From Elusimicrobiota bacterium (GTDB lineage Bacteria; Elusimicrobiota; Elusimicrobia; JACQPE01), in the NCBI GenBank assembly GCA_016180815.1, contig JACPAN010000008.1, forward strand, positions 124,001 to 188,000: a stretch of DNA of 64,000 nt, given 5' to 3'. Of the stretch, positions 3,794 through 41,116 are shown in pieces. The position numbers and the translations under genes are program-made. Under the pieces are notes generated by a model. That model was not told where the DNA came from and searched no databases. It saw nothing but the letters and a program-made list of their open reading frames with translations. The stretch's first letter is position 1. The number at the start of each line of letters is the position of its first letter.

Positions 3794-5245
3794 TCAATTT
3801 AACACTTTTTGACCGAAAAATTGTTTAGACGGCGCCGCGGTTTCGAGTTCTTTCAGCAGCGCTTCGCCGATGCGCTCGCCGGCTTTCCCGTCGTTTTTGA
3901 AGCAATGGGAACGGATGATTTCTTTGCGGCCCGCGGCGTCTAATCCGGGGTTCGCCAGGTATCCGTTGATGTGTTTGAGCAATTCTTCGTGGGACCTGGC
4001 CACGCGCAGGCCGTTGGTGCGCATCAGGTTCTGATAGTGGTTCCAGTCGTAATACCGGGCGATGGAACGGTAGTAGGGCATAGGGGTATTGCCGTCATAA
4101 GCGATGGAAACGACCGGGCGGTCGAACGCCGCGGCGTCGAGGGTGCTGGTGGAGAGCACGTTAAGCGCCACGTCGCAATTGGCCAAGACTTCGGCTAAAT
4201 GCCGCTCATCATCCTCGCCCGCTTTCCAACCGGAAGAAAAACGGCCCGCGGTGAATGCGATGCTGGGCTCGTCGATTAAAACATCCGGGTGCCCGCGATA
4301 GCGCAGTAAATAATTAGTATCCAAACCCGGATGAAGCCTCAGCAGAAGTTGCGCGGGCGACGAATAGCGGCCTTCCTTCAACCATTGAACCAGGTGTTCC
4401 ACCACCTCGATTTGTTTGGGCAGCATATTCGGATTGCCCGCCAGATAAGCGATGGTTTTTTTATCGGGATTTCCTCCGTAACGCTTGATGAACTCGGAGC
4501 GCGGCGTCCAGCGGCCGCCGGCGTAAACGTCGAATTGAGGGATGCCGACAATTTCGATCTCCGCGTCTTTGTAGCCCAAAAAATCCGTTAATTCCTTGTG
4601 CTGGATTTCATTCCAGATCAATAGTTTGTCGAAATGAAGCGGCAATAGCCTGCCCGGAAGCGGGCTGACGGCTCCGCGCAATCCTGTTTTGGTGTTGATC
4701 ACGTCCCAACTGTGCAGCATGGCCGTGACCTTGATGCCCAGCCTGCGTCCGTAAAAAGCCACGGGAAATTCTTCCAAGGCCGTGGTGTGAGTCAGAAAAA
4801 CCATGGACGGCTTGAATTCTTCAAACAAACGGTCGTAATAATCACAGCGGACCAACGCCGGCTGCCACTGCCGCAGCCAGGATAACAGCGGCTCCCAACC
4901 CAGCAAAAATCCGATGATTCGCCGCCGCTGAAAGGAGCCGGGCAAATCATGGCGCAGGCTTTCCTTTAAAATCTGCAGGGTGCGGATGCCGGATTTGCCG
5001 GTGAAGTAATACCCCTCCGCGATATCCAAAAATTTTCTCAGCGCGCGGAAAGCGAACGGCAGTTTATTGGGAAGATCGCGGAAAAGGATGTTGGGGCCTT
5101 GGAATTCCTTGACGAATTCCGGGTCTAAAGAGAGAGCCGATAAAATAACAACCCGGTGCTCGCGGCTGAGCATCTTGAGCGCCGCGCAGCGCAGGATATT
5201 CCTGGCCGAAATACCGTAAGGGACGCTGATAAAAACCGTTTTCAT
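3794..5245 (-). CDS. Putative GT-B glycosyltransferase / surface-carbohydrate protein
   Basis: About 483 residues from the ATG at 5245 (MKTVFISVPYGISARN). The segment with KTIAYLAGNPN at mid-protein and the C-terminal NVLSTSTLDAAAFDRPVVSI are typical of GT-B enzymes that bind nucleotide sugars in the second Rossmann domain (CDP-glycerol transferase, WaaB and UDP-GlcNAc 2-epimerase-like folds). No transmembrane helix or signal peptide is evident. The exact activity is not recognised. An in-frame start at 5293 would add 16 unlikely residues and lies upstream of a good TATAAT, so 5245 is preferred. The neighbouring sugar operon makes a cytoplasmic role in glycan assembly likely. Confidence 0.7.
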   Translation of the reverse strand: MKTVFISVPYGISARNILRCAALKMLSREHRVVILSALSLDPEFVKEFQGPNILFRDLPNKLPFAFRALRKFLDIAEGYYFTGKSGIRTLQILKESLRHDLPGSFQRRRIIGFLLGWEPLLSWLRQWQPALVRCDYYDRLFEEFKPSMVFLTHTTALEEFPVAFYGRRLGIKVTAMLHSWDVINTKTGLRGAVSPLPGRLLPLHFDKLLIWNEIQHKELTDFLGYKDAEIEIVGIPQFDVYAGGRWTPRSEFIKRYGGNPDKKTIAYLAGNPNMLPKQIEVVEHLVQWLKEGRYSSPAQLLLRLHPGLDTNYLLRYRGHPDVLIDEPSIAFTAGRFSSGWKAGEDDERHLAEVLANCDVALNVLSTSTLDAAAFDRPVVSIAYDGNTPMPYYRSIARYYDWNHYQNLMRTNGLRVARSHEELLKHINGYLANPGLDAAGRKEIIRSHCFKNDGKAGERIGEALLKELETAAPSKQFFGQKVLN

Positions 5246-5266
5246 GGAATCCGCGTTCACGCCGGG

Positions 5267-5296
5267 ATTATAAGAAATCAGACTACTATCCAAAAT
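5267..5296 (-). promoter_or_regulatory. Putative leftward promoter for the GT-B gene
   Basis: On the minus strand a perfect TATAAT lies at 5272-5267, with only a weak -35 (ATTTTG, 5296-5291, 18-base spacer). The expected transcript would start about 15 bases before the ATG at 5245. The first operator repeat (5299-5310) lies next to the -35 region, so the divergent toxin-antitoxin-like locus may share control with it. Confidence 0.4.
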
Positions 5297-5298
5297 AA

Positions 5299-5399
5299 GT
5301 TACCAAACAAATAGTGTAAATATGTCGCAATGTTTGGTAATTAAACCTTGCGAAAAGTTACCAAACAAACTATGCTAATTAATAGAATTGTTTGGTAAC
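5299..5399. promoter_or_regulatory. Four-copy operator array (two inverted pairs of TTACCAAACA)
   Basis: The 10-base core TTACCAAACA occurs four times in alternating orientation: 5300-5309 (+), 5331-5340 (-), 5358-5367 (+) and 5389-5398 (-). The two members of each pair are offset by exactly 31 bases, and the pairs repeat at 58 bases. Copies 1, 3 and 4 extend to the 12-mer GTTACCAAACAA or its complement. Copy 3 sits in the spacer of the rightward promoter and copy 4 just before the ATG at 5404. This is the layout of a repressor operator, plausibly autoregulatory for the gene pair downstream. Confidence 0.75.
5348..5376 (+). promoter_or_regulatory. Sigma70-like promoter of the 5404-6385 gene pair
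   Basis: TTGCGA (5348-5353) and TATGCT (5371-5376) are separated by the optimal 17 bases, the spacer being largely filled by an operator copy. Transcription would start near 5383, giving a leader of about 20 bases before the ATG at 5404. Confidence 0.55.
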
Positions 5400-5403
5400 T
5401 GCA

Positions 5404-5760
5404 ATGAGCATTATAAGAAGCATCCTAGCCGAAGAACTGCAAAACTCTATAAATCGCCTTGGAAAGTACAAACAGACGCTTAAAAGCCTTCCGAGGGGCG
5501 TCTTAATTAACAAAAAGATTAAAGGTCATAAATTTTATTATGAAGCCTACAGAGATGGTAAGAAGGTCAAGTTTAGATATAAAGGCAAGTTAAACAAAGC
5601 GGAGATCGCCAAATATAAAGAAGCCCAAAAATTAAAAGTCAGGTATCACAAATCGATATCAGACATACGCCGCCAGATAAAGTTCCTCGAGCGAGCCCTT
5701 CATGAACGAAAAAAAAGATCAAGAAAACCTCTGTCTAGAAGTTCTAAAAAAGCTCCATAA
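5404..5760 (+). CDS. Small basic coiled-coil protein, putative antitoxin/partner of the downstream nucleotidyltransferase
   Basis: 118 residues, very Lys/Arg rich. An N-terminal helix (ILAEELQNSINRLGKYKQTL) is followed by LPRGVLINKKIKGHKFYYEA, a beta segment (YRDGKKVKFRYKG), then a long charged helix likely to form a coiled coil. The pattern leucine-proline-[RK]-G ... KKI-G-[KH]-[EK]-[FY]YY ... YRDGKKV ... YKGK resembles small proteins known next to nucleotidyltransferase toxins in Firmicutes; this is recollection of a pattern, not a search result. The gene overlaps the next one by 59 bases, so the two are co-transcribed. ATG 5404 is preferred to an in-frame TTG at 5392, which lies inside the operator. 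It is noticeably AT-richer than its flanks, suggesting transfer. Confidence 0.7.
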   Translation: MSIIRSILAEELQNSINRLGKYKQTLKSLPRGVLINKKIKGHKFYYEAYRDGKKVKFRYKGKLNKAEIAKYKEAQKLKVRYHKSISDIRRQIKFLERALHERKKRSRKPLSRSSKKAP

Positions 5761-6385
5761 GGTTGGTGTCTTGCAAGATTTAATTCTTGTGGGCAGCTGG
5801 TGCGTTTATTTCTATAAAGACCTGCTCAAAAATTCGAAATACGTATCTACCGTAAGAACTACGGATATCGATTTTTTAATCCAGACTCCCCCGAAAATTA
5901 GTACCTCCGTTGATTTGCCTGAACTGTTTAAAGAGCTTGATTTTATCCCGGACCATCGCTCGAGTGGTTTGATTAAACTGATTCATCCGCAATTAACGAT
6001 AGAATTTTTGGTTCCGGAAAAAGGGAAAGGCGATAGCGGGCCTTATCCGATTAAAGCTTTGAAAATTACCGCTCAGCCGTTACGCTTTATGAACCTGCTG
6101 ACAGATCAGCTCGTGATATTAAAAACTCAAGGCATGATGCTGAGACTCCCGCATCCTGCCAATTATGCTTTTCAAAAGTTAATCATCAGCAACCGTAGAA
6201 AAAAACCTGAAAAGCGCGATAAAGACCGTCGGCAAGCCATCGACATACTGGAAGCTATGGACAACAATGCTTTTGAAGAAGCAAAAATAATTTTAAAATC
6301 TCTACCGTCCAATTGGCAGAAAACTATTCTGAATACACTGGTAAAGATCCAGGAAAATACCCTAACAGATCGACTGGTAAACTAG
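5702..6385 (+). CDS. GSU2403-family nucleotidyltransferase-fold protein (NTP_transf_8-like)
   Basis: 227 residues. The order of motifs fits the GSU2403/NTP_transf_8 group: ILVGSWCVYFYKD (the GG/GS-W stretch of the polymerase-beta fold), RTTDIDFLIQTPP (two of the metal-binding carboxylates), LTIEFLVPEKGKG (third carboxylate region), then LRFMNLLTDQLVILK and a helical C-terminus that includes FQKLIISNRRKK. Members are thought to modify nucleic acid or protein by NMP transfer, and several related folds act as toxins. It overlaps the upstream basic protein, sits behind a palindromic operator array and is AT-rich like its partner. I therefore read the pair as a toxin-antitoxin-like or defence module; activity is inferred. 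Confidence 0.8.
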   Translation: MNEKKDQENLCLEVLKKLHKVGVLQDLILVGSWCVYFYKDLLKNSKYVSTVRTTDIDFLIQTPPKISTSVDLPELFKELDFIPDHRSSGLIKLIHPQLTIEFLVPEKGKGDSGPYPIKALKITAQPLRFMNLLTDQLVILKTQGMMLRLPHPANYAFQKLIISNRRKKPEKRDKDRRQAIDILEAMDNNAFEEAKIILKSLPSNWQKTILNTLVKIQENTLTDRLVN

Positions 6386-6508
6386 CGTTTAGCCATTGGG
6401 CGAAGGCCTGAAGATTATCTTGTTTTCCTTCGGCTAGGGTTGAAATGGATGGATAAATTTTACAGTAGAATGCTTTCTAATGATTGATAGGCACACACAG
6501 GGGAACGA

Positions 6509-7096
6509 ATGGGCCATTCGACACCGAGAAGTCTGACGTTGGACAACGTGGATGATGCGATCCGCACGTATGCGCTTTCTGTTGAACAGATCGGGAGCTC
6601 GATTGCTCATTTGCGAGGCATACCACTCTTGGAAGCACTAAAGCACACCGAGATCGGTGCTGGCCCATACGACGATGTTTCACTATTCGAGGCTGCAAAC
6701 CGCATCATGACCGACCTTGTGATTCTCCATGGCGTTCGATGGATGCTGAAGAAGCGCACTTTCCCATTCAAAACGTATCTAGTCGAGTATGGCAATGATG
6801 ATGAAAACGGATTTGACATTCGCGCAGAGCACGACGGTAAGATCTTGATCGGTGAGGCTTTCAACGTCGCGAAGTCATTCTTTTCGACGAAGCGTGGAGC
6901 CATGCTTAAGAAATTGCGCAATTTGAAGGCTGACTTCCGAATCCTGATATTCAACCATGACGCGGTAAAGACTAGGTACGTGCCCGAAACTGGCCCTGGA
7001 GAACATTTCGTATTGGTCGACGTTGGTTCTGAAAGTGCCAAGGTGGTGCCCAACCTTCCGCTGGAACGGACGGTGGCTTTGAAGGAGTTTCAATAG
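6509..7096 (+). CDS. Integron-cassette protein 1, unknown function (possible PD-(D/E)XK-like core)
   Basis: 195 residues with no family I recognise. An N-terminal helical part (to ~80) is followed by an alpha/beta core with YLVEYGNDDENGFDIRAEH, then KILIGEAFNVAK and FRILIFNHDAV. The spacing D103 ... E116-x-F with nearby Lys122 faintly recalls a PD-(D/E)XK nuclease sheet, but this is weak. AGGGG 8-12 bases before the ATG can serve as ribosome-binding site. The last 16 codons lie inside an attC site (7048-7123), so the gene and recombination site overlap. Codon choice and composition differ from the chromosomal neighbours, as expected for a captured cassette. Confidence 0.7.
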   Translation: MGHSTPRSLTLDNVDDAIRTYALSVEQIGSSIAHLRGIPLLEALKHTEIGAGPYDDVSLFEAANRIMTDLVILHGVRWMLKKRTFPFKTYLVEYGNDDENGFDIRAEHDGKILIGEAFNVAKSFFSTKRGAMLKKLRNLKADFRILIFNHDAVKTRYVPETGPGEHFVLVDVGSESAKVVPNLPLERTVALKEFQ

Positions 7097-7123
7097 CCGC
7101 CGCCGTTCAGCGGCACGTTAGGC
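7048..7123 (+). other. attC recombination site 1
   Basis: 76 bases. R'' is GCCCAAC (7048-7054) and R' is GTTAGGC (7117-7123). L'' is CCGCTGGAACGG (7058-7069) and L' is CCGTTCAGCGG (7103-7113): they pair perfectly except for one extra G in L'', the extrahelical base characteristic of attC. R/L spacers are 3 bases on each side (CTT and CAC). The inner part continues the stem (CGGTGGC with GCCGCCG, one mismatch) and leaves a loop around 7080-7095. The left half is inside the end of the cassette-1 gene. Confidence 0.85.
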
Positions 7124-7132
7124 CGAACTGAA

Positions 7133-7693
7133 ATGTCAATTCCTGATCCGGACAAGTACGTTGCAAAGCTCATCGAACTGCATGGTGGCAGAGAGAATTT
7201 CTTCTCCGTGATGGAAGCGCAGTACAAGAAGTTCTTGTCCATCTGGGAGCAAGATGCGGAAAAGATCGGACGGGTACTGAGAGCTCACTTGGCGGTCGAA
7301 CACTTCCTCGCTGAGCACATTCAGGCGACAAATCCCAAGCTCGGTTCTTTGGACAACGCGCGTTTAAGCTTCGCGCAGAAGATCGATCTTCTGGACGAAC
7401 ATGATCGAATGGCCGAGTTTCTGAAACCTGGGCTCAGGCGGTTGAATCAGATTCGGAACCGTCTTGCGCACAAACTTAAGATGGACATAGACGCCGAAGA
7501 TCGCGAAGCGTTTTTGGCCATAGAGATCTTCCGAGCGATGCGTGATGAGGGCTCGAAGCGCACCGGCCCACCGGCTGATGATCCCCTTTCGGTCATAGAG
7601 CAGTTTGCCAAATTTGCATCGGGGCTACTGCAGACTACCGCAAATCCCCAAGCCAATTTGTGGAAGGAAGCCTACGGGCCACCACCCGACTAG
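7133..7693 (+). CDS. Integron-cassette protein 2, HEPN/MtlR-like with Rx4H motif
   Basis: 186 residues, mostly alpha-helical. Residues ~45-60 (RAHLAVEHFLAEHI) and the RNRLAH motif with R108, N109 and H113 match the R-polar-x3-H active-site signature of HEPN RNases, as also kept in MtlR/DUF4145-type proteins. It could act as an RNase toxin or defence effector, but no MNT or other antitoxin gene is inside the same cassette; the nucleotidyltransferase at 5702-6385 is outside it. The ATG lies 10 bases after the R' box of attC1, without a clear ribosome-binding site, and the TAG is directly followed by R'' of attC2, the standard compact cassette layout. Confidence 0.75.
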   Translation: MSIPDPDKYVAKLIELHGGRENFFSVMEAQYKKFLSIWEQDAEKIGRVLRAHLAVEHFLAEHIQATNPKLGSLDNARLSFAQKIDLLDEHDRMAEFLKPGLRRLNQIRNRLAHKLKMDIDAEDREAFLAIEIFRAMRDEGSKRTGPPADDPLSVIEQFAKFASGLLQTTANPQANLWKEAYGPPPD

Positions 7694-7764
7694 GCCTAAC
7701 CCGCCGCTTGCAGCCGGCCCACCGCCAAAAGCAGCGGTGGGCGGCTGAAGCGGAATCGTTGGGC
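7694..7764 (+). other. attC recombination site 2
   Basis: 71 bases, starting immediately after the cassette-2 stop codon. R'' GCCTAAC (7694-7700) pairs with R' GTTGGGC (7758-7764) with one mismatch. L'' CCGCTTGCAGCC (7704-7715) pairs with L' GGCTGAAGCGG (7743-7753) leaving a single unpaired G in L''. The central part (CCCACCGCC with GGTGGGC) lengthens the hairpin, with a short loop at about 7727-7734. All the structural marks of a bona fide attC are present. Confidence 0.9.
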
Positions 7765-7779
7765 GTCATAAAATTGGAC

Positions 7780-7914
7780 ATGGCAAGCTCACCCAGCACC
7801 CAAGACGAATGGACGATACATGCCCTGAACATTCACGGTGGGTTCTTTCGAGGAAAAGCGGGGACTAAAATCACATTGACGGACGGGCGTTTAGGGGTTA
7901 TAAATATAAAGTAG
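7780..7914 (+). pseudogene. Possible truncated third cassette ORF
   Basis: A 44-codon reading frame begins at the first ATG 15 bases after attC2 (MASSPSTQDEWTIHALNIHG) and ends at TAG 7912-7914. The opening with TIHALNIHGGFF looks like the N-terminus of a longer protein joined to an unrelated-looking tail (TKITLTDGRLG). No attC follows before the radical SAM gene at 7995, so this is probably a remnant of a decayed cassette. Not recognised as any family. Confidence 0.3.
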
Positions 7915-7994: not shown

Positions 7995-9521
7995 ATGGCT
8001 AAGGTATTGTTTTTGTATCCGAATTTGAGGGCGGAAAGCCTGATTCCTCCCTGCATCACCTTGCTTTCCCGGTTGCTTAAAGACCGGGGCCATACCGTTG
8101 ATTTGTTCGATTCCACGAATTACGACATTCCTCTTGAGTTTCACCGGGTGGACACGGATAAGATGAAGGAGCAGAATCTCAACGTCCGGCCCACGGATTC
8201 TTGGAAGCGCGAGCGCAAAAAAGGCGACGTCTTCCATGATTTTGAGAGCAAGGTCGAAGAATTTTCCCCGGATTTGATTGCGGTCACCGTGACCGAAGCC
8301 ACGTTCATGGTCGGGATCACGCTGATGAAATCCATCAAGCAGTACGACATCCGCAATATTTGGGGCGGCGTGTTCCCCACCTTCGCTCCGATGCGGGCCA
8401 TCGGGTTTCCTGAAGTCGAGATGCTTTGCGTGGGCGAGGGAGAGAATTGCCTGACTGATTTATGCGAGCTGATCGATAAAAAACAAGACTATTCCAAGGT
8501 TACGAATCTGTGGTTTAAAAAACCCGGCGGCGAAATCATCAAAAACGCCATCACCAAGCCCGTGGACATTAATGAATTGCCGACGAATTTGGACGTTGGT
8601 CTTTTCTTGGAGCGCGAGCCGGACCGGTCCATCAGGCCCATGGGCGGCAAGCTTTATCGCATGCTGCCGGTGGAAACCCATCGGGGCTGCCCCTATACTT
8701 GCGCCTTCTGCAATTCGCCGTCTCAGAACGTCCTTTATGCGGAGCAGACGCAATCGAGCTTTTTCCGCAAGAAGAGGGTGGACCGTATTCGCCAGGAGCT
8801 TCTTTATTACAGGGACAATTGGGGCGTGCAATACAATTTTATGTGGGCGGATACGTTTTTCGCTTGGACGCCCCAGGAAATGGCCGAATTCGCGGAAATG
8901 TATCAGGACATCAAACTGCCCTTTTGGTGCCAGACCCGTCCGGAAACAGTCAAGCGCGATATTCTGGAAATGCTCAAGGGCGTCGGCTTGGACCGCATCA
9001 GCTACGGCATCGAGCACGGCAATTTGAAATTCCGCCGCGAAGTGGTCAATCGCCGCTACCCGGATGAAGTCATCGCCCAGGCCGGCAACATCACCAGGGA
9101 ATTGAGCATCCCTTTCAACGGGAACAATATCATCGGTTACCCGACGGAAACGCGCGCGTTGTCCTTTGAGACCATCGAGCTCAACCGCAAAATCCCGACG
9201 GACACCATGTCCTGCTCCATTTTTCAGCCGTATTACGGCACTCCGTTGAGGGATTTGGCCGTCAAACACGGGTTCATGGACAAGGATTTCATCTGTCCGT
9301 CCAATTCGGACGATACCGTGCTGAAAATGCCCGGTTATTCTTCGGAAGAAATCCGAGGGCTGCGCCGCTGCTTTGCCATGTACACGCGTTTCCCGAAAGA
9401 TCGTTGGCCGGAGATCAAAGAGGCGGAAAAAATGACTCCGGAAGGCGATAAGAAATGGGAAGCTCTGCGCGACGAGTTTATGGAAACGTTCTACGGCAAA
9501 AAGCCCGAAAGCGAATTCTAA
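7995..9521 (+). CDS. B12-binding-type radical SAM protein
   Basis: 508 residues. The N-terminal ~150 residues look like a cobalamin-binding Rossmann-type domain (KVLFLYPNLRAE ... RLLKDRGHTVDLFDST ... PDLIAVTVTEATF ... IWGGVFPTFAP), although the classic DxHxxG is not obvious. The radical SAM core follows: HRGCPYTCAFCNSP carries the CxxxCxxC [4Fe-4S] cluster motif, with ISYGIEHGNLKFRREVVNR and NIIGYPTET as later barrel strands. Members methylate or rearrange unreactive carbons, or act in sugar, lipid or cofactor synthesis. Its position just upstream of the NeuB-like gene suggests action on the same surface sugar or its lipid carrier. It is followed by a 54-base gap with a TATCTT box before the next gene. 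Confidence 0.85.
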   Translation: MAKVLFLYPNLRAESLIPPCITLLSRLLKDRGHTVDLFDSTNYDIPLEFHRVDTDKMKEQNLNVRPTDSWKRERKKGDVFHDFESKVEEFSPDLIAVTVTEATFMVGITLMKSIKQYDIRNIWGGVFPTFAPMRAIGFPEVEMLCVGEGENCLTDLCELIDKKQDYSKVTNLWFKKPGGEIIKNAITKPVDINELPTNLDVGLFLEREPDRSIRPMGGKLYRMLPVETHRGCPYTCAFCNSPSQNVLYAEQTQSSFFRKKRVDRIRQELLYYRDNWGVQYNFMWADTFFAWTPQEMAEFAEMYQDIKLPFWCQTRPETVKRDILEMLKGVGLDRISYGIEHGNLKFRREVVNRRYPDEVIAQAGNITRELSIPFNGNNIIGYPTETRALSFETIELNRKIPTDTMSCSIFQPYYGTPLRDLAVKHGFMDKDFICPSNSDDTVLKMPGYSSEEIRGLRRCFAMYTRFPKDRWPEIKEAEKMTPEGDKKWEALRDEFMETFYGKKPESEF

Positions 9522-37289: not shown

Positions 37290-39176
37290 TCACGTTCTTT
37301 TTAGTTTAAAGAGAATTCCTCCCTTTGATTTGAAAATAGCCTCCAAAAAACCGAGGTTTTGCGAATGTTCCCACCAGCGGCATTGAACAAAGCCGTGGCT
37401 ATACGCGCCTTCCCAAAGGTATCCTGAGGCGGATTTGAGCAATCGCCATTGCGAAGTCACAAAAAGAACATGGGTAATTTTTTCCCGCCGGAGCGTTTTT
37501 TCAATTTCCTTTGGGTCATTAAGAAGGAGCATGCGATAGGGCGCTTGCCTGATGAACCCGCCCAAGTCTCTATAGTGATAAGGCATGAAATGATGATCGA
37601 GCGCCGCCACCCGGCTTTCCGGGGGCAGGCGATTGACGAATTGAACCATCTCCCAGCCTTCGCTGGGGTAGTATCGTTCAAGAAATTGAGCGTCTCCCGA
37701 TGATTTGAAATTGGATTTAAGGGCGGGCAAGGCGTTGAGGCCGGAAGCGGCTAGGTTAGGAAAAATAATTCCGGCGGCAAATAGAATATTCAATAATCCG
37801 CGCGCCTTGGGATAAGTTTCCCGCGCCAGCCACCAGGCTGCCAACGCGAGCGCAGCCGCGGCCGCATGCATGGAGAGATTGTAGCGGGCGATGAGATGAT
37901 GCTCGCCGGTGGCAAAGCACCGGGGAATAAATCCCAGCGCAATCCAGGCCGACAGCAGAAGCCGGTTGTTGCGCCAGAATCCGTTCAATAAAAGAGCGGC
38001 CGGAATAAAGGCCACGTAGGGACCTGTTTCAAGAACGCGGCCGGAAAAAAAACGCGACCAAAAATACGATCCCAATGTCGCCGAGTCCCGGCGCATGGAC
38101 GTGCCCAGGCGGTCCGCCCATTCCAGCTCGATGAAGGGCAATCCGAAGGCGGGCATGGGATAGAGAGGGTTGCCGCGAATAACCCAAAGATAGAGGCAAA
38201 AAGGGCCCAGCGCAAAAGCCGCCGAAAGCCCGAACATGGCGAGTCCGCGCCCGATCGTTGATATGTTTTTGCGCTCGACGGCGATGAAACAAACGATCAG
38301 GGCCGCCCAATAACTCCAAACCGTGTATTTGTTGAGCGCCAGGGCGGCCAAGGCCGCGGTGATCCATAGAGGCGTTTTTTCTTCGCGATAGAGCAGAAAA
38401 GCCAAAAATCCCCCAAGGCAAAAACCCGCGGCCGCGATATCGGTTGATGCGATGGATGAATGTTGAAGCAGCACGGGAGATCCGAAAAGAGCGAGCCCGG
38501 CCGCAAGCCCGGACCGGGCGCTGCCCGATACTCTTGCGGCCAGGCATGCGGCCAATAAGGCAAGCACAATAGCCCAAAAAAAGTTCATCATCTTTGCAGC
38601 CAATTCGCCGCCGAAAGCCATGAGCGGCACATAAATTAAATTGAGTATTTGCGGGTAATAACTTTGAGCTTGATCAAAGGGCGGCGGCGCCATGCGACCC
38701 ATGTTCAGGTAAGCTTTAGGCAGGTAAAGGTGGTAAGACAAATCGTCGCGAACAATGCCGGGCGTGTGGCAGGTGAATAAATGGATGACGGCGATGATGA
38801 GCGTCAGGGCTAACGCCGTTGAGAGAAGTATTTTTTCCGTTTGCCCTGGGCCTAGGCCGCTCACCCGGCGCATGCCTTGGCGCACGAGCGTCAGGCTTTC
38901 GTTGATGAAGCTGACAATGCTGCTGCGTAATAAAATTGCGGAGGCGACGGCCCAAACCAAAAAAGCCCAGCGATTGAAGAGTCCTAAAAGTCCCATGGCA
39001 AAAAAGACATAAAGCCAAAGTCCATAACCGAGCAAGAGCTCGATCAGCAATTGCTCCGGAGGGGCTTGCTCATTTTTTAAATTGAAACGAAGAACGGCCT
39101 TTCCCAGGGCGCCGCACAACAAAAACATGGCCATGGCTAACAGCAGATTTTTTGGAAGAAGAAGAATCGGAGCCAT
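37290..39176 (-). CDS. Multi-pass membrane protein, GT39-like glycosyltransferase (tandem paralogue 1)
   Basis: 628 residues with about 12 transmembrane segments. After TM4, YHLYLPKAYLNMGRMAPPPF and YYPQILNLIYVPLMAFGGEL form the outer loops of a GT-C fold. A soluble C-terminal part (QFLERYYPSEGWEMVQFVN ... ALDHHFMPYHYRDLG ... THVLFVTSQWRLLK) ends in QCRWWEHSQNLG. It is clearly paralogous to 39190-40893. Substrate unknown; these proteins commonly decorate surface glycans or lipids. Two leftward copies lie 13 bases apart. Confidence 0.75.
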   Translation of the reverse strand: MAPILLLPKNLLLAMAMFLLCGALGKAVLRFNLKNEQAPPEQLLIELLLGYGLWLYVFFAMGLLGLFNRWAFLVWAVASAILLRSSIVSFINESLTLVRQGMRRVSGLGPGQTEKILLSTALALTLIIAVIHLFTCHTPGIVRDDLSYHLYLPKAYLNMGRMAPPPFDQAQSYYPQILNLIYVPLMAFGGELAAKMMNFFWAIVLALLAACLAARVSGSARSGLAAGLALFGSPVLLQHSSIASTDIAAAGFCLGGFLAFLLYREEKTPLWITAALAALALNKYTVWSYWAALIVCFIAVERKNISTIGRGLAMFGLSAAFALGPFCLYLWVIRGNPLYPMPAFGLPFIELEWADRLGTSMRRDSATLGSYFWSRFFSGRVLETGPYVAFIPAALLLNGFWRNNRLLLSAWIALGFIPRCFATGEHHLIARYNLSMHAAAAALALAAWWLARETYPKARGLLNILFAAGIIFPNLAASGLNALPALKSNFKSSGDAQFLERYYPSEGWEMVQFVNRLPPESRVAALDHHFMPYHYRDLGGFIRQAPYRMLLLNDPKEIEKTLRREKITHVLFVTSQWRLLKSASGYLWEGAYSHGFVQCRWWEHSQNLGFLEAIFKSKGGILFKLKRT

Positions 39177-39189
39177 GGGTCAGGGACCC

Positions 39190-40893
39190 CTATAGCCGGC
39201 CGATCGCCGGTTCGATTTTAAATAGCACGGCGCCCCACGTCCAACTTACGGATTTGAGGAAATCAAGCCGTTTATTCGTCCACCAGCGGCATTGGATATA
39301 AGGCGCAAAGTAAACGGCGTTCCACAGGACGCCATTGGGAGTTCGCGTCCGTTCCCATTGACTATGGATGAACAATACATGAGTGATTTGTTCGCGTTTC
39401 AATGCTTCGGCGATTCTCAATGGATCGTCTTGAAGGAGGATTTCATGCGGCACTTGCCACAAATGGCGGCCCAGGTCCTTGTAGTGATAAGGCGTGGCAT
39501 GATGGTCGATCACGGCCGTGCGGCTTTGAGGGGGCAGATGATTGACGGTTAGAAGCATTTCCCAGCCTTCATTCGGGTAGTAGCGATCAAGAAAATCGGA
39601 GCCGCTGAGGCGTCCGGCGTTATAGAAAGCCTGCGGCAAGGCGCTCATGGCCATGGCCGTGAGACCGGGCACAATGAGTTGGGCGGCCAACATCAAGCGC
39701 AGCATCCACCGGCGTTTCGGCCATTCGCCCAACGCTCGTCCCCAGACCAGGATCCCTAAAACAGCGCCTGCGGCGTACACCGGCAAAATGTAGCGCCAAA
39801 TCAGTTGCGATTGTCCCCCCGCGAAAAAACGGATCGCCAAAGCCAGCGCCAGCCATAGAGCGATTCGTCCGGTTTTCCCTTTAAGAAGGTCCGGCCATAA
39901 GAGAATCAGCGGGCAAAACGCCAGGTAAGCCCCGCCGTCAAGCCCGCCGCCGCTTAAGAATCGTTCCCAACAATAGGATAAAAGCATGGCCGGGTTGCGA
40001 TTAATGGTCGTAGCCGCTAAATTGGCTTTTTCAAGAGAATCGTAAGGGAATCCATTGAGAAAAGGCAGCGGGTAGAAAGGGCTGCCCATGGTCCACCATA
40101 GATAAGCGCATAGGGGCAGCAACGCGGTCATGGAAAATAAGGCGAATTGAAAAACGCCGCGGAACAAGAAGCGCGCGTTGTTTCGCGTTTGCCAGGCGAA
40201 GATCATGGCCGTTGCCAGAGGAAAACTCCAGGACGTGTATTTATTGAGCGCCAGGGCGCTTAATATGGCGACGGGCGCCGGGGTTTTGTTTTGATAAGCC
40301 AGCAGCGCCAGCAGGCCGCCTAGAGCGAAACAAGCGGCGGGCAGATCAGCCAAGGCCGTTTGGCTCATTTCCCCCACCAGGGGCGTGGCCAAGACAGCGG
40401 CTCCGGCGGTGCAAGCCGTGAGAGCGCTTGCTCCGGCCCGCAAAGCCAGGCAAATGCCCAGGCCGGCTAAAACCAAGCTCCAGCAAAAATTCATCATTTT
40501 TGCGGCCAATTCGCCGCCGAAGGCCAGGGCCGGGATATAGCTGATATTAAAGAGATGCGGGTAATAGCTTTGGGCTTGGTGAAATGGAACTGGCGCAATG
40601 CGGCCCATCTCCAGATAAGCCTTGGGCAGATAGAGATGATAAGAGAGATCATCTCTGTAAACGGCCGGAGCATGGCTGGCGATCGCGAAGGTGATCGCCA
40701 AGGCGATTGAAATCATGATCAAAGCGCCGATGTAGACGGCCTGTTTGTCCCGGTATTCATTTTTTATCTCTTGAGCCAATGCGCCGATGGATCGGCGGAT
40801 TTCGCCGATCCAGGCGGTCATTTGGCGCCGACAAAACGCTATGGAAAGCATGGCCAGCAATCCCAGAATCCACGGTTTAAACAGCCCGATCAA
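39190..40893 (-). CDS. Multi-pass membrane protein, GT39-like glycosyltransferase (tandem paralogue 2, N-terminally short)
   Basis: 567 residues from a TTG; no ATG or GTG is available in frame. It matches 37290-39176 almost throughout: YHLYLPKAYLEMGRIAPVPF, YYPHLFNISYIPALAFGGEL, FLDRYYPNEGWEML, THVLFIHSQWE and QCRWWTNKR are shared. Relative to the paralogue the first ~60 residues (TM1 and the loop after it) are missing. The frame is open further upstream (to about 41000) and could be continued by the short frame 40934-41116 after a one-base shift. It may therefore be a frameshifted or truncated copy. Confidence 0.72.
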   Translation of the reverse strand: MIGLFKPWILGLLAMLSIAFCRRQMTAWIGEIRRSIGALAQEIKNEYRDKQAVYIGALIMISIALAITFAIASHAPAVYRDDLSYHLYLPKAYLEMGRIAPVPFHQAQSYYPHLFNISYIPALAFGGELAAKMMNFCWSLVLAGLGICLALRAGASALTACTAGAAVLATPLVGEMSQTALADLPAACFALGGLLALLAYQNKTPAPVAILSALALNKYTSWSFPLATAMIFAWQTRNNARFLFRGVFQFALFSMTALLPLCAYLWWTMGSPFYPLPFLNGFPYDSLEKANLAATTINRNPAMLLSYCWERFLSGGGLDGGAYLAFCPLILLWPDLLKGKTGRIALWLALALAIRFFAGGQSQLIWRYILPVYAAGAVLGILVWGRALGEWPKRRWMLRLMLAAQLIVPGLTAMAMSALPQAFYNAGRLSGSDFLDRYYPNEGWEMLLTVNHLPPQSRTAVIDHHATPYHYKDLGRHLWQVPHEILLQDDPLRIAEALKREQITHVLFIHSQWERTRTPNGVLWNAVYFAPYIQCRWWTNKRLDFLKSVSWTWGAVLFKIEPAIGRL

Positions 40894-40933
40894 ACCGGCG
40901 AACCAAAGGATGTAAAGAGGCTGACGAGCGGGA

Positions 40934-41116
40934 TCAAAAGCCGCTAAGCCGGTCCAAAACCAAATCTTTGAATCTTCCCGTGAACAGCCCGTGGTAATAG
41001 CGGATGGTCAGAAACGCCAGGATCAGCCAGAAGGCGGCGTCTCTGGCTTGTTTGAATCGTTGTTTAAGCGGCGTTTTTCTTTTTAAGGCGGTCAAGATAT
41101 TTGACGGCTTGTTCAC
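40934..41116 (-). CDS. Short hydrophobic ORF, possibly the displaced N-terminus of the next gene
   Basis: 60 codons from GTG 41116 (a TTG at 41095 is also possible), overlapping the end of cca by 53 bases. One transmembrane-like segment (AAFWLILAFLTIRYYHG) is followed by GRFKDLVLDRLSGF. In position and pattern this resembles the first segment missing from the paralogue at 39190. A one-base change near the T-run at ~40935 would join the two frames. It may alternatively be a small independent membrane protein, or not a gene. Confidence 0.3.
   Translation of the reverse strand: MNKPSNILTALKRKTPLKQRFKQARDAAFWLILAFLTIRYYHGLFTGRFKDLVLDRLSGF

Follow-up and report, generated by a model that had tools for sequence, protein, structure and literature searches.

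A two-cassette attC array with an integrase gene remnant in an Elusimicrobiota genome, probably a decayed chromosomal integron

The locus and its flanking genes

The window analysed here is a 64-kb stretch of DNA (C8:124001-188000) from an Elusimicrobiota bacterium, whose draft genome comprises 2.85 Mb in 39 contigs and is 99.5% complete. The surroundings are rich in glycan genes (NeuB, nucleotidyltransferases, glycosyltransferases, and radical SAM). Between two of these genes lies a block that carries a toxin-antitoxin-like pair, a fragment of an integron integrase gene (intI), and a short array of gene cassettes with attC sites. Its features, in window coordinates, are as follows.

3794-5293, minus strand: left flanking gene, glycosyl/glycerophosphotransferase-like (Pfam Glyphos_transf, E 1e-5); homologue in genome G175 at L050 12470-13990
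5294-7994, no strand: inserted block, 2701 bp between two divergent glycan genes
5392-6385, plus strand: toxin-antitoxin-like pair, overlapping ORFs 5392-5760 and 5702-6385; G+C 39%
6386-6443, minus strand: intI remnant, 58 bp, 20 codons of the N-terminal region, ending at GTTGA 6439-6443
6509-7096, plus strand: cassette 1 gene, 195 aa, orphan
7048-7123, plus strand: attC1, R'' GCCCAAC 7048-7054, R' GTTAGGC 7117-7123; the cassette 1 gene runs into it
7118-7758, plus strand: cassette 2, bounded by crossovers at G7117^T7118 and G7758^T7759
7133-7693, plus strand: cassette 2 gene, 186 aa, with the Rx4H motif RNRLAH
7694-7764, plus strand: attC2, R'' GCCTAAC 7694-7700, R' GTTGGGC 7758-7764
7759-7914, plus strand: start of a third cassette, truncated; its ORF is 7780-7914, with no attC behind it
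7995-9521, plus strand: right flanking gene, B12-binding/radical SAM; the G175 protein (contig C97) is 86% identical

G175 belongs to the same family as the host but to another genus. There, the two flanking genes, again divergent, lie only 233 bp from each other (L050 12237-12469), and the cassettes are absent. The first-pass annotation had named the same genes in a conserved context in relatives as evidence against cassettes; what G175 has is the flanking genes without them. The block would thus be an insertion in the host lineage, and its loss in the G175 lineage is less likely. Since both flanks and the block share one contig, a binning artefact is disfavoured.

The toxin-antitoxin-like pair consists of a 122-aa protein and an NTP_transf_8 nucleotidyltransferase (PF12281, E 9e-29). 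It is collinear in genome G194, with approximately 50% protein identity, and is therefore regarded as an independent module. The region that precedes the pair (5294-5400) contains repeated inverted motifs, AGTTACCAAACAA / TTGTTTGGTAACT, which are partly conserved in G194 (L055 2185-2239) and look like putative operator sites.

attC sites and cassettes

The attC sites were searched for with a strict pattern finder, which requires an R'' and an R' box together with paired arms that contain one bulge. At a cut-off of at least 9/10 arm pairs, the 64 kb gave two matches, attC1 and attC2, each with 10/10. Five shuffles of the same sequence gave a mean of 0.4 matches at cut-off 9 and zero at 9.5. Two covariance models were also used. 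R1 was built from 9 attC sites of other genera and R2 from 55 attC sites of other Elusimicrobiota; neither includes a site from the host genome, and the training sites mostly adjoin integrase genes. An earlier alignment of 22 attC sites was dropped for model building, its arms being misaligned by spacer lengths.

In the window, R1 matched attC1 (24.8 bits, E 0.0014) and attC2 (21.8 bits, E 0.007) and nothing else, with attC2 also matched on the opposite strand at 21.5 bits. R2 matched attC1 with 47.3 bits (E 6e-9 for the window and 2.8e-7 for the whole genome). Because attC2 is nearly symmetrical, its match to R2 is weak and in the opposite orientation (17.5 bits, E 0.067), and its covariance score is significant with R1 only. 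The bottom strands fold with -27.0 kcal/mol (z -6.9 against shuffles) for attC1 and -26.4 kcal/mol (z -5.4) for attC2. On the top strand, both sites have an extra G in the L'' arm, and attC1 folds with additional bulges. Box pairing around a variable loop, an extrahelical base, and a covariance score are thus found at both sites. An Rfam search of the window returned no family above threshold. The first-pass annotation had placed two attC sites here, each with a single extrahelical G, and had proposed a covariance-model search of the window and a wider search for more sites. Both sites were recovered at the positions it gave, by the pattern finder and by R1, and the G is present in both, with more bulges besides in attC1. 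A search of the whole genome added two further arrays.

These arrays lie on contig C10 of the host genome. R2 detects attC sites at C10:106713, 108520, and 109045 (minus strand) and at C10:38853 and 41064 (plus strand), which, together with the window, makes 7 attC sites in three arrays of two or three sites each. Transposase-like genes, which appear IS630-like by inspection, lie between the second and third sites of the 106713-109045 array. The last site of the 38853-41064 array has lost most of its R' box. L098 8935-11065, also on C10, contains 2.2 kb between two attC sites, with four ORFs directed against the cassettes; this stretch may be either an unusually large cassette or a cassette with an insertion.

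In an array built by tandem insertion through an integrase, each cassette begins with a TTRRRY that formerly belonged to its own attC site. Pairing is therefore expected between the R'' box of an attC and the R' box of the attC before it. In the window, R'' of attC2 and R' of attC1 are perfect complements, and the rule holds perfectly at all four testable junctions of the host genome. Over all arrays, 34 of 40 adjacent attC pairs are perfect, compared with 12% of random pairs; the site's own R' gives 5 of 40. The rule played no part in finding the sites, and this complementarity is the strongest evidence for cassette 2 as a real, once-mobile unit; it bears indirectly on recombination by an integron integrase at G^TT. 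The TTGGGC with which cassette 1 should begin is missing, and erosion of its 5' end is the probable cause. Beyond attC2, no further attC was found within the window by the pattern finder or R1.

It is hardly credible that the two sites are chance hairpins. The near symmetry of attC2 and its weak R2 score would fit such a reading, but shuffled sequence yields no matches of equal quality, and an independently trained model picks just these two sites. Moreover, the junction rule is satisfied, and the host genome contains two further attC arrays.

The arrays bring orphan cassette genes. The cassette 1 protein matches no family in profile searches and has no relatives in plasmid, viral, and named-genome searches. 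Its residues from about 87 to 150 are a possible PD-(D/E)XK-like core, judged by inspection and by a sub-threshold match to Tsp45I (E 0.11). The cassette 2 protein has a sub-threshold match to a HepT-like profile (E 0.1), and its RNRLAH is an Rx4H motif, which may point to a HEPN RNase-like product. HEPN RNases with Rx4-6H motifs do occur in integron cassettes (PMC3710099). The sole match of this protein in plasmid, viral, and named-genome searches is partial, 33% to an Acinetobacter plasmid protein, and among 336 Elusimicrobiota genomes it was not found outside the host. The truncated third cassette had no match in the plasmid, viral, and named-genome searches. Sequence searches of the PDB gave no convincing match for the cassette proteins, and the predicted structures of the two have mean pLDDT values of 45.5 and 35.7, below use for a fold search.

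The integrase remnant and the origin of the array

In working integrons, intI is divergent from the cassettes. A remnant of this gene occupies that place in the window array and in an array on C10: in both, it precedes the first cassette and points away from it. The window remnant, being only 58 bp long, was recognised through the C10 copy (L051 7700-7759), with which it shares 92% identity over approximately 60 bp. In the C10 copy, the reading frame continues for 77 codons. The encoded peptide is 36% identical to the N-terminal part of the true IntI of genome G167 (E 7e-5) and also matches Phage_int_SAM_4 (E 6.7e-4). In 336 genomes, it matches only C10, the window, and G167. In both remnants the intI homology stops at GTTGA, which by comparison with G167 lies near codon 45 of the gene. 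This end may mark a deletion point common to both copies or a site where cassettes landed. Because both remnants end inside intI at the same GTTGA, a normal attI is probably not preserved. Upstream of cassette 1, no canonical R' box fits it; the best fit is 6/7 and lies within the remnant, and GTTGA 6439-6443 is a candidate attI.

The 58-bp block was also considered as an attC site of the toxin-antitoxin-like pair, and its C10 copy gives a weak attC-like palindrome with the pattern finder. This candidate was rejected: the covariance model does not list the block, and the C10 copy falls in frame for the integrase SAM-like domain.

No IntI was found in the host genome, where TIGR02249 scores at most 63 bits, below its cut-off of 265. 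The RxxE and HxLRH motifs are 76-93 residues apart in the host recombinases that were measured and 127 residues apart in the true IntI of relatives. The true IntI of related genomes contain the typical WQYVFP...RRHH region. The IntI-specific region before HxLRH, expected of the intI gene in a complete integron, was not found in the host recombinases that were measured. The earlier statement that no integrase is in view thus stands as regards an IntI gene, but it missed the remnant at 6386-6443.

A cluster of attC sites lacking an integron integrase is called a CALIN in IntegronFinder usage (PMC9024848, PMC8618304). The window array has two attC sites, at 7048 and 7694, which are 646 bp apart and so within the 4 kb allowed for at least two sites; the genome has no IntI above the cut-off, and only the 58-bp remnant adjoins. 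With two significant attC sites, no IntI found in the host, and an Elusimicrobiota host, the array is a CALIN-like cluster outside the classical gammaproteobacterial hosts, as had been proposed from the sequence. Like known CALINs (PMC9024848, PMC8618304), it has two attC sites in the same orientation, a gene before each, and no IntI gene nearby. It differs in keeping a recognisable intI remnant and in belonging to a phylum that is off the 2021 list of integron carriers.

CALINs have been proposed to arise when an IntI located elsewhere inserts cassettes off target, when intI is lost, or through rearrangement (PMC8618304). Integrase loss is favoured among these origins because an intI remnant is present. 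We consider it likely that a resident chromosomal integron lost its integrase and decayed to the CALIN seen here. This integron, with intI, attI, and cassettes, would once have occupied the space that separates the two flanking glycan genes, and its integrase would have worked on attC sites folded from single strands to place circular cassettes head to tail. Most of intI would then have been lost, with the toxin-antitoxin-like pair now at the place of its 3' part, and the third cassette would have been cut. What is left would be 58 bp of intI with two cassettes and the beginning of a third, in an array frozen after the destruction of the integrase gene. We infer this order of events, as well as the presence of a complete integron at this exact spot. 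The cassettes would now be mobile only if an IntI arrived from elsewhere.

The attC sites, the insertion junction, the empty site in G175, the intI fragment common to two arrays, and an assembly without IntI argue for decay, as do the two further arrays on C10 and the joint occurrence of IntI and attC elsewhere in the phylum. Against it, the remnant comprises just 58 bp, a normal attI is probably not preserved, and attC2 is weak with R2. In addition, G175 represents another genus, so that its empty site could be a loss, and a draft of 39 contigs may hide an IntI in a gap.

In a different origin, an integrase acting in trans would have inserted the cassettes off target, perhaps into an already broken intI, and a complete integron would never have existed here. 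Insertion in trans is a published origin of CALINs (PMC8618304), and 12 of 98 relatives carry attC sites without a detected IntI. The end of intI homology at GTT inside the gene, in both arrays, is a possible cassette landing. Nevertheless, the intI remnant is in the standard divergent place at two arrays, as decay in situ predicts, and an IntI able to act in trans was not found in the host genome. Furthermore, the first cassettes do not have an opening box that complements their own R'', which is needed for a clean insertion at GTT. We regard this origin as improbable, though deserving of some weight. It is doubtful that the GTT in the broken intI served as a landing site at two arrays, so that dead integrons would have kept gaining cassettes through a trans integrase.

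A working integrase might also be located on an unassembled stretch, with the three arrays still being mobile parts of a live integron. The assembly is a draft of 39 contigs, and attC repeats are known to break assemblies (PMC9024848). However, the window array lies in the interior of a 240-kb contig and adjoins an intI remnant, and the completeness of the genome is 99.5%. The C10 arrays also bear signs of decay, namely the ruined R' box in the 38-41 kb array and the interruption of the other by transposase genes. A live integron is very unlikely. Arrays that retain an integrase remnant, read as decayed integrons, would provide direct, testable examples of CALINs formed by integrase loss.

Integrons in other Elusimicrobiota

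An IntI above the curated TIGR02249 cut-off is encoded in 30 of 341 Elusimicrobiota genomes (about 9%), and attC sites are found in 31 of 98 relatives. The two go together: 19 of the 20 genomes with intI contain attC sites, compared with 12 of the 78 without (Fisher p 3e-11, with related genomes not being independent). The 12 genomes that are attC-positive and intI-negative include the host genome. Whole families with neither attC nor intI served as a negative control. Integrons are not exceptional in Elusimicrobiota.

The sedentary chromosomal integrons of this phylum (G161, G229, G005, G203, and others) share the kind of attC site, the cassette layout, and the divergent intI with the host arrays. 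They have an intact IntI and long arrays, whereas the host has an intI fragment and two or three attC sites per array. Small arrays, most of them CALINs, have also been described in archaeal metagenome-assembled genomes, which are likewise uncultured and far from Proteobacteria (PMC9668308). The archaeal attC sites belong to another domain and were shown to recombine in E. coli. CALINs and decayed integrons have been described as more widely spread than complete integrons (PMC9668308).

Elusimicrobiota is absent from the integron carriers listed in a 2021 review (PMC8618304), and the present results place the phylum among them. A literature search for Elusimicrobia together with integrons found no integron survey; supplements and most subscription journals were outside its scope. 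What is new is the phylum, as judged by its absence from the 2021 list, which is not proof of priority; the kind of element, a CALIN or decayed integron, is known.

The IntI proteins of the phylum vary at their N-termini. At least 14 of 24 motif-sorted IntI have about 60 extra N-terminal residues, with the pattern GRLIVRLPYSPERV.KIKTVPGR.W...WSVP (L014, L015, L018-L022, L024-L027, L030, L035, and L036). The extension has sub-threshold similarity to HARP (PF07443, E 0.02 in L015), and no literature on integrases with such a HARP-like N-terminal extension was found. The IntI of L032, L033, L034, and L069 carry an N-terminal extension of about 100 residues (..YYVQWAAQYL...DWQVQQAQTAVKIY..) ahead of the SAM-like domain, and the intI remnants of the host genome are of this type. 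In G203 (L030/L065), which is assembled as a single 3.8-Mb contig, the IntI gene is broken by one TAG stop beside at least 9 attC sites, and this integron is possibly in the act of decaying.
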